DNA of 38,568 nucleotides from a virus. This document shows positions 6,048-38,568 of the stretch, in pieces (positions within the stretch are counted from its first letter, which is position 1; each line of letters starts with the position of its first letter). A program made the position numbers and the translations under genes. Where the stretch lies: positions 1 through 38,568 of the IMG/VR virus record IMGVR_UViG_3300027763_000010; one strand, written 5' to 3'. Under the pieces are notes generated by a model that was not told the DNA's origin, did no database searches, and saw nothing but the letters and a program-made list of their open reading frames with translations.

Positions 6048-6186
6048 AATGAACTACGGCGAACAGACTTTCATCTATGATCGCAACGGGCGCATGGTCG
6101 CTGCGGGCGTAGGCGATGAGTATGGCATGTATTACAGCAACCGCTACGGCCAGACTATCGGCACAAGATATGATGCGCCAAAATGA
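5956..6186 (+). CDS. Small predicted secreted protein (76 aa) with signal peptide
   Basis: The product starts MKYFLFLTASLTLIAQPLKAQE, a textbook Sec signal peptide with a likely cleavage after LKA (residue 20). The mature 56 residues are polar, with YDRNGRMVAAGVGDEYGMYY and a second NRYGQTIGTRYD segment that looks like a beta hairpin pair. There is no lipobox. It would act in the periplasm, which is odd for a gene between replication genes; a role in superinfection exclusion or envelope modification is possible but not shown. The stop TGA at 6184-6186 overlaps the polymerase ATG at 6183. Confidence 0.65.
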   Translation: MKYFLFLTASLTLIAQPLKAQEVETTQRFTEMNYGEQTFIYDRNGRMVAAGVGDEYGMYYSNRYGQTIGTRYDAPK

Positions 6187-8075
6187 TCTGGCTCGACTTT
6201 GAAACGCGCAGCGAGTGCGATCTAAAGACGGCGGGCGTATATAACTACGCTCGTCACCCATCTACGCAAGTGCTCTGTATGTCCTACGCCATAGACGATG
6301 GGCCTGTACAGACGTGGCGTCCTGGGCAACTCCTGCCTGTGCTCACAACACAGATCCGCGCACATAACGCAGCGTTTGAACGTCTGATCTTCTGGCATGT
6401 GTTAAAGCAACACGTCCCGCTTGAACAGTTCTATTGTACCGCGACGCAAGCGCGAGCAAACTGTGCGCCAGGAAGCTTGGAAGACATGGCGCGTTTTGCT
6501 GGCACAGACATGCGTAAAGATCATCGAGGCAATTATCTCGTTCGTAAATTATGCATCCCGCCATTCAGTGATGATGTGCGATTAATGCAGGAACTGATAG
6601 AATATTGTGAGCAAGACGTGCGTACGATGCGCGCGGCATCTAAAGCGATGCGGGAACTAACAGATGATGAGCTGGCAGATTATCATATTAATGAGCGTAT
6701 CAATGATCGCGGCGTCTTGGTTGACGTACCTTTATGCCAAGCAGCGGTTCGATTCGCGGCTGATGAATTACAAGAAATCGAACGCATCGTTCGTGAGGTT
6801 ACGAATGGCGAGATCACGTCAGTCAGAAGCCCTAAGATGCGACAATGGGTTCAAGATCGTGTTGGCCCCGCAGCCCTCAAGCTCATGGAGCGAGACGACA
6901 AGTATAGTATCGATAAGACGGCGCGTGCAAATCTATTGGCGATGGACGATCCTGAAGAAGTGCCGCCAGATGTCGCCGATGTTATACAGTGCGCTGATGA
7001 TCTTTGGGCGTCTTCTGTAGCAAAGTTCAAGCGCCTATTTGATCTTGCCGGCGAGGATCACCGCGTCCGTGGCGCGTTTGTATTTGCGGGCGGCAGTGCA
7101 ACAGGTCGCGCTAGTTCTTACGGCGCGCAGGTGCATAACTTTACGCGCGTCTGTGCAGAGGATCCCGACGCTGTACGCCATGCGATGGTGCGCGGTCATA
7201 AGATCGTGCCTAAGTTCGGTAAGCGCGTCACTGATGTGCTCAAAGGTATGTTACGCCCAGCGATGGTTCCGGCGCGCGGGCATCAGTTTGTCGTTGCAGA
7301 TTGGTCGTCCATAGAAGCCCGCGTTACTCCGTGGTTGTCCATGAATGGCGATGACAAGCTCGCGTTATTTAACACTGGACAAGATGTGTATAAGTTCAAC
7401 GCGTCAAAAACTTTTGGCTGTGCCATAGAAGATGTGACAAAAGACCAACGCCAAGTTGGTAAAGTTCAAGAGTTAGCATGTGGGTTTGCCGGTGGCATCG
7501 GCGCGTTTGCTGCGATGGGTCGTGTATACGGAATCAATATGCCGGAAGACGAAGCCAGACGTATGGTAAACGCCTGGAGACTCGCAAATAAATGGTCTGT
7601 GCCGTTCTGGAATGAAATCGAGCTTGCATATACACGGGCGTTAGCTCGTCAAGGCGAAATATTTAGCGCCGGTAAAATTAAATACTTGTTTCGTGGTGAG
7701 CATCTTTGGTATGCTCTCCCTTCGGGTCGCGTTCTTTGTTATCCCTATGCGCGGTTTGAAGATGACGAAAGCATAACCTATGCAAAGGCATCTTGGAAAC
7801 CAGCCGCAGACGCAAAGGAATGGCCCCGTGCACGGCTATGGCGTGGGCTTGCATGTGAGAATGTAACCCAAGCAGTTGCAAATGATTTATTAAGGTACAG
7901 TCTACGAAATTTAAATAATGTTGTGCTTCATGTTCACGATGAAATAGTTGTCGAAACAGACGAACCAGAAATAGCAAGGGAGGCTATGGTTCGTGTGATG
8001 ACAACGCCGGCGGATTGGGCGGTTGGATTACCGCTTGCAGTAGAAGCTAATATTATGGGGCGATATGGAAAATAG
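6183..8075 (+). CDS. DNA polymerase, family A (Pol I-like) with 3'-5' exonuclease domain
   Basis: The 630-residue protein is the phage replicative polymerase. The N-terminal exonuclease domain shows Exo I DFET (Asp4, Glu6), the Exo II segment AHNAAFERLIF and Exo III YCEQDVRTM. The polymerase domain shows motif A VVADWSSIEAR with Asp373, motif B starting at Lys427 (KVQELACGFAGG) and motif C LHVHDEIVVE with His585-Asp586-Glu587. It lacks the 5' nuclease domain of bacterial Pol I. The Exo II residue is Glu rather than the usual Asp, as seen in related phage enzymes. It starts in the stop of the 5956 gene and overlaps the primase-helicase start by 11 bases. Confidence 0.97.
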   Translation: MIWLDFETRSECDLKTAGVYNYARHPSTQVLCMSYAIDDGPVQTWRPGQLLPVLTTQIRAHNAAFERLIFWHVLKQHVPLEQFYCTATQARANCAPGSLEDMARFAGTDMRKDHRGNYLVRKLCIPPFSDDVRLMQELIEYCEQDVRTMRAASKAMRELTDDELADYHINERINDRGVLVDVPLCQAAVRFAADELQEIERIVREVTNGEITSVRSPKMRQWVQDRVGPAALKLMERDDKYSIDKTARANLLAMDDPEEVPPDVADVIQCADDLWASSVAKFKRLFDLAGEDHRVRGAFVFAGGSATGRASSYGAQVHNFTRVCAEDPDAVRHAMVRGHKIVPKFGKRVTDVLKGMLRPAMVPARGHQFVVADWSSIEARVTPWLSMNGDDKLALFNTGQDVYKFNASKTFGCAIEDVTKDQRQVGKVQELACGFAGGIGAFAAMGRVYGINMPEDEARRMVNAWRLANKWSVPFWNEIELAYTRALARQGEIFSAGKIKYLFRGEHLWYALPSGRVLCYPYARFEDDESITYAKASWKPAADAKEWPRARLWRGLACENVTQAVANDLLRYSLRNLNNVVLHVHDEIVVETDEPEIAREAMVRVMTTPADWAVGLPLAVEANIMGRYGK

Positions 8076-10368
8076 AATCCTTGACTATGTAGTCGGACTT
8101 GCGGAAGCAGGCGAGACGCCGCTCATAGTGCGGCAAGTGCCAATAGTGCGTAATAACGTACATCTACAGCATTTAGATGGATCGTATAAATATACTTGGC
8201 CCGCTTATCTTCCTACGCATAAGCGCAAGAAAGGCGAAGCTTGGTATATTAACACAGGTTCTTTTATTATCGAGCGCTTTAAAGACGGTAAGGTTAGCGC
8301 CGCATCTGCTAATTGCGAATATGTGCTCTTTATGATGTTGGATGACATCGGCACGAAAAGCAAAACGCCGCCGCTTGAGCCTACGTGGATAGTAGAGACA
8401 AGCCCAGATAATTTTCAATGGGTTTATGCATTCAGAGAACAACCAACAACAGGAGAATATTGTGCAGCTATTACAGCGCTGGCCGCAGCCGGTTATACCG
8501 ATCCAGGCGCAACTAATGCTGTGCGTAATTGCCGTCTGCCTGGTTCAGTTAATTTAAAACCTGGGCGTGATGCATTTGAGTGTAAAGAGATCTCTTTTAA
8601 CCCAAAGCTAGACTACACGTTACAAGAGATATGCGACGCATGTGGCGTTATACCGTTAGAGGCAAACACAGCTACCTATCGATCCGTTAAAGTAGAAGAT
8701 AACGGCGTTGATAATGTAATGACATGGCTCAACGAGCAAGGTCTTGTCTTATCGCGTCCTAATCCAGAAGGCTGGATGGGCGTAGTCTGCCCTAACAATG
8801 CAGCGCATACAGACGGTCAGATCGAGGGTCGGTATAGACCGCTGGATCGTTCTTATTGCTGCATGCACGCCCACTGCGATCACATCAACAGTGAAGCGTT
8901 TCTTAAATGGGTCGCTGATAATGGTGGGCCGCGCGAGCATCAAGGCATCAGAGGCGAGCTTATCACTGCCGAATTTAAAGCGATGCATGAAGCGATAAAG
9001 CCTAACGAATTTTTCCCTGACGTAGCATCTGAGCGCGTCGCGCAGGTAGAGCGCGAAGAGGCCGGACGCGTTGAGCGCGGTGACTGGTATGAGCGTTTTG
9101 CGTATATCGTGGATGATGACGCATATTTTGACCTTACGACGCGCAACGAGATCTCGCGTAGTTCTTTCAATGCTATCTTTCGGCATATCAGTTGCGTCTC
9201 AGTGCATAACGCCAAGCGCCGCATCGAGGCATCTGTGTGCTTTGATGAAAATCGCCAAGAGCACAAGGCAAAACTATTGAAAGGTCTAACCTATGCGGCA
9301 GGCGAAAAGATCTTGGTGCATAAAGATAATGAAGTCTATGGCAATAGATGGCGAGACGCTCGACCGATTTTCACCAGAACAAGCAGAGATATATCACGCT
9401 TTACTGCCCATTGTGAACGGTTGGTGCCAGATCAAGGCGAACTCGATCATTGCTACGACGTTATGGCTTTTAAGCTCCAAAACGCAGACGTTAAAATAAA
9501 TCACGCCGTCTTGCATGGTGGCGATGAAGGCTCCGGCAAAGACACGATGTGGGCACCATTCATCTGGTCAGTGTGCGGCCCGAACAATCACAACAAAGGT
9601 ATTATAGACAACGAAAGCTTGTCGTCGCAGTGGGGCTACCAGCTTGAGAGCGAGATCTTGATCCTCAACGAGCTGCGCGAGCCGGAGGCCAAGGAGCGCC
9701 GCGCGCTAGCCAATAAGCTTAAGCCTATTATTGCTGCGCCGCCTGACATGCTGCCGATCAACCGCAAGGGTCTGCATCCGTACAACATGCTCAACCGTGT
9801 GCTTGTGCTCGCCTTCACCAACGATCCGATTCCGATCTCTATACCGTCGCAGGATCGCCGCTGGTTCTGTGTGTGGTCAACAGCGCCGCGCATGGCTCCA
9901 GATGAGGCCCGCGAGATGTGGGACTGGTATCATGCCGGCGGCTTCGAGGCCGTCGCCTCCTGGCTTTACGCGCGCGATGTTAGCCGCTTCAACCCTGCCG
10001 CCGCTCCTCCTATCACTGACTTCAAGCTCTCGCTCGTTGAGCATGGCATGAGCATGGCTGAGAGCTTTATCGTTGAGATGATCAGAGGCCGCAAGGGCGA
10101 CTTCGCCTTGGGCGTTATCGCTGGGCCTTTCCATGAGATGTGCGGGCGCTTGAGCGTCCAGGCCGGCAATGGGGTCAAGGTGCCGCAAGCCGCGCTCCTC
10201 CACGCGCTCAAGGAGGCCGGCTGGGTAGACTGCGGTCGCCTTCACTCAGGTAAATATCAAACCAAGCGCCACGTCTTTTGCGCGCCGAACATGCTTCAGC
10301 ATAGCAAGTCAGACTTGCGTAATATGTGCGAACCAACCCCAACCCCGAACCTACAGGTGGTCAAATGA
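8065..10368 (+). CDS. Bifunctional primase-helicase (AEP/RepB-like primase plus DUF5906 SF3-like helicase)
   Basis: The 767-residue protein probably both primes and unwinds phage DNA. The N-terminal third has an archaeo-eukaryotic primase look: MMLDDIG with Asp93-Asp94, SPDNFQWVYAF, and NCRLPGSVNLK near residues 155-165. A zinc-binding motif follows, Cys242 and His248 with CCMHAHCDH at 265-273. The C-terminal half carries Walker A HGGDEGSGKDTMW at about 484-495 and a LILNELREPE Walker-B-like segment, followed by LVLAFTNDPIPI, as in DUF5906/P4-type helicases. It is directly coupled to the polymerase gene and completes the replisome core. Codon use shifts to higher GC in the last third. Confidence 0.9.
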   Translation: MENRILDYVVGLAEAGETPLIVRQVPIVRNNVHLQHLDGSYKYTWPAYLPTHKRKKGEAWYINTGSFIIERFKDGKVSAASANCEYVLFMMLDDIGTKSKTPPLEPTWIVETSPDNFQWVYAFREQPTTGEYCAAITALAAAGYTDPGATNAVRNCRLPGSVNLKPGRDAFECKEISFNPKLDYTLQEICDACGVIPLEANTATYRSVKVEDNGVDNVMTWLNEQGLVLSRPNPEGWMGVVCPNNAAHTDGQIEGRYRPLDRSYCCMHAHCDHINSEAFLKWVADNGGPREHQGIRGELITAEFKAMHEAIKPNEFFPDVASERVAQVEREEAGRVERGDWYERFAYIVDDDAYFDLTTRNEISRSSFNAIFRHISCVSVHNAKRRIEASVCFDENRQEHKAKLLKGLTYAAGEKILVHKDNEVYGNRWRDARPIFTRTSRDISRFTAHCERLVPDQGELDHCYDVMAFKLQNADVKINHAVLHGGDEGSGKDTMWAPFIWSVCGPNNHNKGIIDNESLSSQWGYQLESEILILNELREPEAKERRALANKLKPIIAAPPDMLPINRKGLHPYNMLNRVLVLAFTNDPIPISIPSQDRRWFCVWSTAPRMAPDEAREMWDWYHAGGFEAVASWLYARDVSRFNPAAAPPITDFKLSLVEHGMSMAESFIVEMIRGRKGDFALGVIAGPFHEMCGRLSVQAGNGVKVPQAALLHALKEAGWVDCGRLHSGKYQTKRHVFCAPNMLQHSKSDLRNMCEPTPTPNLQVVK

Positions 10369-10565
10369 AACCTGGCGCTATGCATGCCCTTAAAGATCCA
10401 TCACGCCTCACCAAGGCCGAAGAGAAAATTTATGAGCTTATGCAACAGGGTTTGACGGGTAAAGAGATAGCTGAGAGAATAGGGTCTGGAGGTGCGGGGG
10501 CTATGAACTGCCGCATCAAGGTTATACGTGAAAAGATTGCTGCGCGCCTTATGCCTACTGGTTAG
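10365..10565 (+). CDS. Small helix-turn-helix protein (LuxR/sigma-4-like)
   Basis: The 66-residue product contains LTKAEEKIYELMQQGLTGKE and then IAERIGSGGAGAMNCRIKVI, the four-helix HTH pattern of LuxR/GerE or sigma region 4 domains, and little else. It is probably a DNA-binding transcription regulator. I chose ATG 10365, whose ATGA overlaps the primase-helicase stop and which has AGGTGG just upstream; an earlier in-frame start at 10326 lies in the primase gene. As the only classical HTH regulator seen in the window it is a candidate early/late switch. Confidence 0.82.
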   Translation: MKPGAMHALKDPSRLTKAEEKIYELMQQGLTGKEIAERIGSGGAGAMNCRIKVIREKIAARLMPTG

Positions 10566-10628: not shown

Positions 10629-11081
10629 ATGGCTGACGAAGTAAATGAACTACTTGGCAGGGTATCCAGAGAGCGCTATTCGAGCAAGAAAGCGCTCAAA
10701 GATCTGCCGGAGCCATCCTTTCTGGATGATCTTAACTTTATGTACCAATACAACTTCGTCCCGCGATATAACGCACTCGCCGCGCGCATGTTCGGGCCTG
10801 GGCCGTCCTACAGTGATCCTTTAACGAGCCGTGAGCGCTCGCCTGTAGGGTTTATGGGCGACATGCCTACTCAGGCCACCCCCGCCCAGCCAATGGCCCT
10901 GAACGCCTTCGTCTTTAATCCTATGCGCGCCTATCCGCGATATTATACCGCTAGCGAAACCTCCAATGAAGGCGTTAAAGGCCCAAGCAAGTTTATGGAA
11001 GGTTTTGCCTATCTAGGCAATGACGTTCCTTCAGGCTTCATGGATATGACCTCGGGGCGCTATCCAGGCTTTGTAAGATAA
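10629..11081 (+). CDS. Hypothetical protein, last gene of the replication operon (150 aa)
   Basis: The product starts MADEVNELLGRVSRERYSSK and then becomes Pro, Met, Tyr and Phe-rich (FGPGPSYSDP, FVFNPMRAYPRYY, SGFMDMTSGRYPGFVR). The composition suggests an extended or poorly ordered C-terminal part. No family is recognised. AGGG lies upstream of the ATG. It is followed at once by a long hairpin that marks the end of both this operon and the leftward one. Confidence 0.7.
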   Translation: MADEVNELLGRVSRERYSSKKALKDLPEPSFLDDLNFMYQYNFVPRYNALAARMFGPGPSYSDPLTSRERSPVGFMGDMPTQATPAQPMALNAFVFNPMRAYPRYYTASETSNEGVKGPSKFMEGFAYLGNDVPSGFMDMTSGRYPGFVR

Positions 11082-11083
11082 AA

Positions 11084-11113
11084 GCCCTCTAGCTATGGGG
11101 GCAGCTAGAGGGC
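11084..11113 (-). terminator. Strong hairpin terminator between convergent operons
   Basis: A perfect 11-bp inverted repeat, GCCCTCTAGCT at 11084-11094 with AGCTAGAGGGC at 11103-11113, encloses an 8-base loop. On the minus strand it is followed by TTTTATC, so it should terminate the leftward small-gene operon. On the plus strand there is no T-run, but the A-rich side and stem may still stop the 3514-11081 operon. Confidence 0.82.
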
Positions 11114-11208
11114 AGGAGGCTTGCAATACGGCCAAGGGAGGAGGCCATGAGCCACACCCTAACGCATCACGATAAACGCTACAATACCTAAAATTGAGAG
11201 CGTTAAAA

Positions 11209-11403: not shown

Positions 11404-11661
11404 TCAATGATTGTTGTTACTAATATTACAAATGCCGATTCTTCGTTCTTCATATCTGATTCCACTTATTATGGTTGTATGGTCGCGTTTAAAGACGCGC
11501 GCTATTTGTGTGTAGGTCTTGTCGGTTTCTTTGTGCGCGCGATACATGGCCTTGCGGCGCACTGCTATAACGCGCAGGGTGTTGTTGTAGTCTATGAGGG
11601 TTTCATAACTTAACCCCGCCGCTTTCGCCTCCTCCGATATTATTTGTTTGATTGTTTTCAT
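11404..11661 (-). CDS. Stand-alone DnaA domain-IV-like DNA-binding protein
   Basis: The 85-residue product has, at residues 35-69, RRKAMYRAHKETDKTYTQIA followed by RVFKRDHTTIISGIR. This is the helix-turn-helix and signature (x-RDHTT-I) by which DnaA domain IV recognises DnaA boxes. There is no AAA+ domain and no remnant of one, so it is not a truncated DnaA gene but a small DNA-binding module. It could bind the phage origin, compete with host DnaA, or act as a repressor. Its 5' end overlaps the upstream gene 11603-11866. The GAAGGCGACCG leader supplies a ribosome site. The family match is strong; the role is inferred. Confidence 0.82.
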   Translation of the reverse strand: MKTIKQIISEEAKAAGLSYETLIDYNNTLRVIAVRRKAMYRAHKETDKTYTQIARVFKRDHTTIISGIRYEERRIGICNISNNNH

Positions 11662-14561: not shown

Positions 14562-14591
14562 ACACTAACACAGTTTTTTTGTTAGTCAATA
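14562..14591 (-). promoter_or_regulatory. Promoter-like repeat, copy 1 (upstream of the Cys-rich gene operon)
   Basis: On the minus strand TTGACT (14589-14584) and TAGTGT (14567-14562) stand 16 bases apart and resemble sigma-70 -35 and -10 boxes. The 26 bases 14566-14591 are an exact copy of 15138-15163. The start codon of the 13755-14525 gene lies about 37 bases further on. The -35 element includes the stop codon of the gene 14582-14725. Confidence 0.75.
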
Positions 14592-15133: not shown

Positions 15134-15163
15134 ACTTTAACACAGTTTTTTTGTTAGTCAATA
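15134..15163 (-). promoter_or_regulatory. Promoter-like repeat, copy 2 (start of the leftward early region)
   Basis: On the minus strand TTGACT (15161-15156) and TAAAGT (15139-15134) stand 16 bases apart. Bases 15138-15163 repeat copy 1 exactly, including the seven-base T/A run of the spacer, while the -10 half differs (TAAAGT against TAGTGT). It directs transcription away from the iteron region into 15103 and beyond. Confidence 0.75.
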
Positions 15164-15196
15164 ACTTTTTTGGCAAAAGCAAATTATTTTTGTTTG

Positions 15197-15534
15197 TTGG
15201 TCTTGTTTGGTCATGTTTTGGTTATTGTTTTGGGGTTGAATGACCCAAACGTAAGCGACTAATATTGCGGGCTAAAGTGGCAAGCTTGGTCTTATTGGTC
15301 TTTTTTATATTAACTAGTTAAAAAAAAAATAATGTATACATATATATGTAGGTGTGTATACAATCCTCCATATTTGGCGCGATTTTTTTCCGATGACCAA
15401 AAGACCAAGATGACCATAAGCCCCCTCTCTGCTACGTCATTCTCTCCCCATGTTTACATTCTCCCTGGTAGACGTGTTGACAATCTCCAGGCGAGCACGA
15501 ATGCGACCTTGAAACACATGACCAAAATGACCAA
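15197..15534. repeat. Inverted array of paired TTGGTC / GACCAA iterons
   Basis: Exact TTGGTC occurs at 15197, 15207, 15286 and 15295 and exact GACCAA at 15395, 15403, 15520 and 15529, with near-copies at 15218 (TTGGTT) and 15412 (GACCAT). They come in pairs 8-10 bases apart, about one helical turn, and all left-arm copies point opposite to all right-arm copies, with the AT-rich core between. Several share the longer forms TTGGTCTT and ATGACCAA. Confidence 0.82.
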
Positions 15535-15623
15535 GACATTTGTCGACAATTGAATGACAACTTAGTTTATGTAAACATGTTGACATTGGTTTACATTCAG
15601 TTCAGTTTACATTTGTCTACATT
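15452..15623. repeat. GTTTACATT motif cluster upstream of the terminase genes
   Basis: Exact GTTTACATT occurs at 15452, 15589 and 15605, the reverse complement ATGTAAAC at 15569, and a one-mismatch form GTCTACATT at 15615. Spacing of the last three is 16 and 10 bases. They are distinct from the GACCAA motifs and may be operators for a regulator of late transcription or a second iteron class. Confidence 0.65.
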
Positions 15624-15727: not shown

Positions 15728-16252
15728 ATGTTTGAAAGTTTGCCATACGAGCCTCGTAAAATAGAGGCCACAGAGAAGAATCTCGAACTGATCTACGAGG
15801 CCGCGCGTAAAGGACTCAAGGGCGACGCGCTCGCGTTAGCTGCCGGCATGCTGCCGGTTGAGTATCGCCGGCTGGTGCAGTTCGATCCTATTGCTGAGTA
15901 TGCGGAGATCAAAGGCCGCGCAGACGGCGAGATGGAGATGACCGGCGTCTTACGCACAGCCGCGTTAAACGGCGACACTAAAGCAGCGCTCGACATATTG
16001 AAGCATGTGCATAAGTGGACTGCGCCGCAGTCGATGCAGATCCAAGTCGAGCAACGCATATCTATCTTAGCGGCGCTTGAAGAAGCGCAGACCAGAGTTA
16101 TTGAAGGGCAGGTATTGGATGCAAGTGCCGATTTACTCAGCGGAAGAAGAACAGAAGCTGATGGCAACGCTCTGGAGTCCGACGCTCAAGAACGACCCGC
16201 TCGCGTTCGTGCGACTGGCCTTCCCGTGGAAGAAGCCTGGGACACCGCTTGA
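15728..16252 (+). CDS. terS: Terminase small subunit (probable)
   Basis: The 174-residue product precedes and overlaps TerL. Its N-terminal part (LELIYEAARKGLKGDALALA followed by AGMLPVEYRRLVQFDP) forms a helix-turn-helix as in small terminase subunits that recognise the packaging site. A helical middle (ALNGDTKAALDILKHVHKWT) and a variable, charged C-terminus follow; the last 45 residues are encoded in the stretch shared with TerL in another frame. No strong ribosome site is visible before ATG 15728, where the leader is AT-rich. The call rests on the HTH, size and position. Confidence 0.82.
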   Translation: MFESLPYEPRKIEATEKNLELIYEAARKGLKGDALALAAGMLPVEYRRLVQFDPIAEYAEIKGRADGEMEMTGVLRTAALNGDTKAALDILKHVHKWTAPQSMQIQVEQRISILAALEEAQTRVIEGQVLDASADLLSGRRTEADGNALESDAQERPARVRATGLPVEEAWDTA

Positions 16253-38382: not shown

Positions 38383-38568
38383 CACCAATGGCTGAGTATC
38401 AAGTATTTTTTGATGTGGCCGTTGGAATCATCGGCGTCCTAGGCGGATGGGTATTGAATACCGTCTGGGGCGCTGTCAAAGATTTGCAAGAAGCCGATAA
38501 GGATCTGGCCGATAAGGTCGCCGCTATCGAGGTTCTTGTAGCAGGGCGCTACGTTACCCGCGATGAAT
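38379..38568 (+). CDS. Small membrane plus coiled-coil protein, N-terminal part (continues at position 1)
   Basis: The gene starts at ATG 38379, overlapping the stop of the ejection gene in an ATGA junction (a second start, MAEYQ, lies at 38388). Residues about 8-25 (FFDVAVGIIGVLGGWVLNTV) form one transmembrane helix. A charged helix follows (WGAVKDLQEADKDLADKVAA). The frame is cut by the contig end and resumes at position 1 once the repeated 25 bases are counted once. The TM-plus-coil layout and place just before the endolysin suggest a lysis or membrane role. Confidence 0.85.
   Translation, partial: MTPMAEYQVFFDVAVGIIGVLGGWVLNTVWGAVKDLQEADKDLADKVAAIEVLVAGRYVTRDE
38544..38568. repeat. Terminal direct repeat, right copy (contig overlap)
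   Basis: This is identical to positions 1-25 and lies inside the coding sequence of the small membrane protein. It marks where the assembly closes on itself, so the unique genome length is 38,543 bases. Confidence 0.93.

Follow-up and report, generated by a model that had tools for sequence, protein, structure and literature searches.

The gap at approximately 15190–15540 of the window (the whole 38,568-bp stretch of viral DNA analyzed here) is probably the replication origin of a freshwater-type phage, and sequence comparisons suggest that its short repeats, or iterons, are read by a winged helix in the primase/SF3-helicase that the phage itself encodes. An earlier sequence-only reading had proposed an origin in this gap, and that proposal is supported: iterons surround an AT-rich element, their layout is kept in most relatives, and they covary with the replication protein. 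From phage to phage the repeats vary along with a single loop of the primase-helicase, and this protein is therefore indicated as the origin recognizer.

In the proposed mechanism, iterons of ~9 bp (ATGACCAAA) would act as double-stranded sites for the predicted C-terminal winged helix of the product of 8065–10368. Copies of the primase-helicase would occupy both of the opposed arms and melt the AT-rich core at 15301–15367, then load as helicase rings and prime synthesis. A wing loop, residues 722–736, would help to choose the iteron, with wing and iterons switching together between related phages. The analysis itself establishes the anatomy of the repeats, an architecture that is kept while its sequence changes, a predicted winged helix and the covariation of wing with iterons; we infer the physical binding, melting and helicase loading, and origin activity itself. 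Counted against this explanation is the distance of ~5 kb between the gap and the initiator gene, unlike initiators that have the origin beside their gene.

Repeat anatomy and genome context

All four TTGGTC and four GACCAA hexamers of the sequence-only reading are confirmed at their positions, as is the AT-rich core, which is the most AT-rich 67 bp in the genome (82% AT; in a whole-genome scan, equally AT-rich 67-bp stretches start at 15292–15301). On both strands of the 38,568-bp genome TTGGTC occurs 31 times versus 14.3 expected, a count reached in none of 100 shuffles. Eight hexamers of this type lie in the 351-bp gap stretch, where ~0.13 are predicted from the average of 14.3 per genome, and the four pairs of the gap are the only tandem hexamer pairs (same strand, ≤14 bp apart) of the genome. 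The repeat unit can be refined from the hexamer to ~9 bp, ATGACCAAA as read on the right arm, which also catches two degenerate copies overlooked by the hexamer, at 15217–15225 and 15410–15418.

With this unit there are 3 + 2 sites to the left of the core and 3 + 2 to the right, in two oppositely oriented arms. The left arm, on the minus strand, comprises an outer group at 15196–15204 (AAGACCAAC, containing the TTGGTC at 15197), 15206–15214 (ATGACCAAA) and 15217–15225 (degenerate, ATAACCAAA), and an inner pair at 15285–15293 (AAGACCAAG) and 15294–15302 (AAGACCAAT). The right arm, on the plus strand, comprises an inner group at 15393–15401 (ATGACCAAA), 15401–15409 (AAGACCAAG) and 15410–15418 (degenerate, ATGACCATA), and an outer pair at 15518–15526 (ATGACCAAA) and 15527–15535 (ATGACCAAG). 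The innermost iterons are 99 bp apart, and the mirrored k-mer score of the gap is 8 versus a shuffle maximum of 6. Short tandem repeats about one helical turn apart beside an AT-rich segment, here the predicted unwinding element, to which no strand is assigned, are a feature of iteron-type origins. Two GTATACA elements lie within the core (15333–15363), and GTATAC is found in 14 of 94 cores versus 4.1 expected, a minor observation. A search for known RNA elements found none.

Small early genes run leftward on the left side of the gap and rightward genes lie to its right, the first being the probable small terminase gene (terS, 15728–16252, plus strand), which forms the right border of the gap and served as the anchor for aligning relatives; the call is based on its position before the large terminase, with no family match. 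The replication module consists of a family-A polymerase (6183–8075), the RepB-primase/DUF5906 helicase (8065–10368, thus ending ~5 kb before the gap starts at ~15190) and a stand-alone DnaA domain IV (11404–11661). The ends of the window are identical over 25 bp (1–25 and 38544–38568), and the genome is thus probably complete, as a circular or terminally redundant molecule, and the record a complete circular assembly. GC skew, a check suggested in the sequence-only reading, has its extremes at 34.1 and 20.6 kb and does not mark the gap, skew being uninformative on the origin position.

Lying as it does between divergent gene blocks, the gap could instead be an operator region, where a regulator bound to the repeats controls the leftward early and rightward late units and the covarying protein is that regulator. 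A sigma-70-like leftward promoter candidate at 15161–15134 accords with such a role and overlaps one copy (15138–15163) of an exact 26-nt duplication. The other copy is at 14566–14591, and each copy sits in the gap upstream of a leftward early gene. The promoter scan, however, yields about as many sites as chance would give (4 versus 3.1 expected), the covarying protein is the primase-helicase, and the sites flank the most AT-rich segment of the genome. Ten sites in mirrored arms ~100 bp apart also exceed the needs of a simple operator. Operator function in place of an origin is therefore improbable, but it may be an additional role alongside that of the origin.

Related phages: conserved layout and changing repeats

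A search with the large terminase (TerL) gave 80 loci, and primase searches then enlarged the set to 167 unique loci, namely those that include the gap as well as the primase C-terminus. Iterons were called significant where the score exceeded the maximum of 60 Markov nulls. By this measure 135 of the 167 relatives carry their own mirrored repeat family with 8–11-bp spacing in the same gap, and at 32 loci this automatic method found no significant iterons. The sequence-only reading had held that homologous phages lacking the repeats in this gap would speak against an origin. Taken literally this is the case: most relatives lack the hexamer, and its pairs are missing from viruses whose TerL is as much as 97% identical. 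The sole reason is that every relative carries an allele of its own; it is the architecture, and not the sequence, that is conserved. Alleles among the relatives include ATGACCCAA, TTGTCCACA, ATGACTCACA and ATAGCCTAA, as well as ATGACCTAG, ATGACTAT, ATGACGAT and TTACCCTAA. Since a test with the exact hexamer fails on differing alleles, allele-free tests were used instead. Only 31 of 94 loci have at least 70% of their sites in the same orientation about the core, because outer blocks often reverse, and the innermost sites were therefore examined. Of the 60 representatives in which tandem sites flank the core on either side, 53 have opposed innermost sites, the median spacing being 108 bp. Iteron calling was automatic and misfires at some loci, as in L259, L264 and L280, where the palindrome TGCTAGCA was picked; where the detector picks another repeat, pairs with near-identical wings seem to differ in iterons.

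Perfect short tandem arrays, with units of 5–15 bp and up to 16 copies, are found in the gap upstream of terS in six relatives (L031, L034, L046, L060, L080, and L256). In Manatee Spring phage MW202483 (L003) a homing endonuclease is annotated at 10712–11158, in or beside the same gap, and is possibly an origin-targeting selfish element.

The relatives also bear on the proteins that the sequence-only reading had named as binders. The product of 11404–11661 is a stand-alone DnaA domain IV without the ATPase part (PF08299, E 9.7e-12), and this match invites the reading that the repeats are DnaA-type sites bound by the phage protein or by host DnaA. The allele TTGTCCACA of some relatives is in addition one base off the DnaA box TTATCCACA. 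Most alleles, however, are unlike DnaA boxes, and the window unit ATGACCAAA is not the DnaA box TTATNCACA. Of the 135 loci where iterons are significant, 88 show no DnaA-IV gene within the fetched stretch, and repeat-carrying contigs of 35–37 kb (such as L040, L083, and L047) give no PF08299 match. Where the gene is present it may be invariant across alleles: the last 38 residues of the DnaA-IV helix-turn-helix (HTH) are identical in L303 and L308, whose iterons differ. The failure to find it in many relatives and this identity led to rejection of the DnaA-IV protein as the iteron binder, and DnaA-type sites, a reading that does not predict the wing result described below, are very unlikely. 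The second proposed binder, a small HTH-like open reading frame (10326–10565), finds no better support, no counterpart being recognized among the open reading frames beside the primase in L083 and L075, the two loci inspected.

Several observations concern DnaA without involving the iterons of the window. The records of L011, L019, and L039 each contain two PF08299 matches. In L044, L063, L074, and L075, which carry the allele TTGTCCACA, occasional perfect DnaA boxes (TTATCCACA) occur and no DnaA-IV gene was detected; interplay of such loci with host DnaA is possible. A second repeat family, GTT[TG]ACAT, lies at 15452–15622 of the window, with nine TGTTTACA-like sites (≤1 mismatch) in the 420 bp that precede terS. 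Of the 74 loci where a DnaA-IV gene is present, 19 have at least three copies, as against none of the 93 without one. These repeats may be a candidate binding site of the phage DnaA-IV protein, although common descent could also account for the pattern.

The predicted initiator and its wing

The predicted initiator (767 aa, 8065–10368, plus strand) unites a RepB-type primase, a DUF5906/SF3 helicase and a C-terminal winged helix. It matches PF16793 RepB_primase (E 1.2e-7, above the curated cut-off) and PF19263 (E 8.4e-10). Sequence searches for solved relatives return weak matches to the NrS-1 helicase only (E about 0.0004–0.001), and a fold search was therefore needed. The AlphaFold2 model of residues 430–767 (mean pLDDT 84) shows a helicase core followed by the predicted winged helix, with the recognition helix at 708–717 (10186–10215, plus strand), strands at 721–726 and 735–739, and a wing tip at 727–734; a model of the winged-helix domain alone has the same elements. 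The best PDB fold match of the C-terminal region is NrS-1 6k9c (Z 24.5, rmsd 5.5, 279 residues aligned, ~19% identity), followed by the SaPI5 primase-helicase 7om0 (Z 18.3, 13% identity). Compared alone with the PDB, the winged helix has no strong match (best Z 6.5), and P4 alpha is not listed, which says nothing either way.

In the alignment of primase-helicases the recognition helix is almost invariant, and the segment after it, the wing hairpin (residues 722–736; 10228–10272, plus strand) with its variable tip, is hypervariable and follows the iteron allele. This pattern was first spotted by eye on 36 sequences and was therefore tested afterwards. Among 94 representatives, residues 722–736 correlate best with iteron distance when 338 windows of 8 aa are scanned along the C-terminal region (partial r about 0.40), and the wing is also top among 1,687 12-aa windows in primase, polymerase, TerS, and TerL (0.41; the best windows elsewhere reach 0.29 in the rest of the primase, 0.25 in polymerase, 0.18 in TerL and 0.14 in TerS). 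At held-out loci, which had no part in the initial recognition of the pattern, the partial r is 0.479, reached by none of 2,000 permutations. Of 85 cases with >10% primase divergence elsewhere, the nearest wing points to a similar iteron in 72 and the nearest rest-of-primase in 34. Individual pairings are readily recognized: wing GRVASGDFQSKKH goes with iteron ATGACCCAA (a group of 25 loci), LKSREFD[STN] with TTGTCCACA, and LLKSRAHT with ATGAC[TC]CACA, and an iteron of the ATGACCAA type is recognizable in all nine loci listed with exactly the wing of the window, GRLHSGKYQTKRH. The wing thus appears to help set iteron specificity and to be the part most tied to it; other residues may contribute.

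Shared ancestry alone could make wing and iterons covary without direct contact, and there are indeed few independent switches on well-supported branches, so that Mantel permutation values overstate independence. A sign test on independent pairs per class is underpowered (1–4 such pairs per class on well-supported branches) and was replaced by contrasts of 61 phylogenetically disjoint pairs, used because the relatives are non-independent. These remain significant after correction for the rest of the protein (partial rank r 0.387, reached by 1–4 of 1,000 permutations), and TerL, TerS, and polymerase lack such covariation. Two natural swaps argue in the same direction, wing and iterons differing in each while the remainder of the C-terminal region changes little or not at all. 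The primases of L108 and L145 show no difference from alignment position 521 to 738, a run of ~215 residues leading up to the wing; seven changes then follow in the wing and its surroundings, with a few beyond. Their gaps are alignable and contain TTGTCCACA versus ATGACCCAA at homologous positions, the homologous repeats reading TGTGGACAATGTGGACA in one and TGGGTCATTTGGGTCA in the other. In L111 and L156 wing and iterons again differ, the C-terminal region apart from the wing diverging by 3% and TerL being 99.6% identical. Descent without contact is accordingly a slightly poorer account than DnaA-type sites, and quite unlikely. Least probable of all is a packaging (pac) site bound by the small terminase, for although the repeats lie 190–530 bp upstream of its probable gene, residual covariation of TerS with the iterons is nearly nil (best window 0.14 versus 0.41 for the wing) and speaks against TerS as the binder.

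Recognition by the primase-helicase wing leads to a broader proposal, offered tentatively and with considerable doubt, of a multi-allele code in which the wing loop changes jointly with all origin iterons (about 8–16 per phage), time and again among close relatives, and each replicon thereby becomes private. A private replicon, if real, might for example keep co-infecting phages from initiating at each other's origins, or protect against nucleases or satellites that target the origin, and TTGTCCACA-type alleles near the host DnaA box could compete with or recruit host DnaA. The many alleles also raise the question of what drives such rapid change in a probably essential site. Many alleles with matching wings, together with close pairs differing almost only there, make the logic of winged-helix recognition directly testable. 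For uncultured phage genomes the wing sequence could serve as a predictor of the iteron and thereby of the origin location.

Comparison with known initiators

Initiator–iteron pairs are usually known as one or two natural types, whereas here more than 130 environmental phages display many alleles. Covariation of an initiator with its origin is already known from RepA of the Vibrio PLE, where the DNA-binding domain covaries with origin iterons and replication requires cognate pairs (PMC8263062). That protein has an unrelated RepA_N domain and iterons of ~30 bp as opposed to ~9 bp, and the PLE comprise two replicon types with whole-domain exchange, in contrast to many alleles and one loop in the group of the window. 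The new part appears to be the multi-allele wing–iteron code; a non-exhaustive search of the open-access literature found no description of a many-allele, single-loop code of this kind.

In its mode of working the window system appears to resemble those of phage P4 alpha, SaPI Rep/Cch2, and NrS-1. The P4 origin system includes a second, distant iteron region, crr; no crr-like region was found in the window, as no other tandem hexamer pair occurs genome-wide. P4 alpha combines primase, SF3 helicase and an origin-recognizing C-terminal winged helix in one protein (Ziegelin 1993 and Yeo 2002, as cited in PMC8628076 and PMC4234260), a union predicted likewise for the window protein. The P4 primase, however, is of the Toprim type (PMC4234260), whereas the window protein has no Pfam match to Toprim and a RepB/AEP-type primase instead, which places it outside the P4 group. 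In SaPI Rep and SCCmec Cch2 the C-terminal domain of a self-loading initiator helicase recognizes short origin iterons (PMC7581432), as proposed for the window, and SaPI5 7om0 is the next fold match, although the two proteins are only distantly related (13% identity). Their origin is directly downstream of the helicase gene, whereas that of the window would be ~5 kb away beside the terminase genes. Replication proteins of the pRN1 type also unite AEP primase, SF3 helicase and C-terminal winged helix (PMC4234260), and the window protein has the matching domain set; for pRN1 and similar phages a stem-loop downstream of the rep gene is proposed, without iterons, in contrast to the iterons of the window.

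NrS-1 provides the best PDB match of the C-terminal region and likewise has an archaeo-eukaryotic-type primase followed by a ring helicase; the window protein shares with it an AEP/RepB-type primase domain and an SF3/DUF5906 helicase domain with the NrS-1 C-terminal fold. The window phage has a separate family-A polymerase, unlike NrS-1. The NrS-1 polymerase recognizes TTTGGTTA, of which two copies lie mid-genome at a suggested origin (PMC7102993, PMC8718748). These are two single sites with no iteron arms described, whereas ten iterons flank the AT-rich core in the window. The NrS-1 octamer is read as a priming site, with primers made from dNTPs, and is attributed to the N-terminal part of the protein, in contrast to the window, where specificity tracks the C-terminal wing. 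The same octamer (PMC8718748) is contained in the degenerate left iteron of the window at 15217–15225, and two further copies lie on the opposite strand at other places in the genome.
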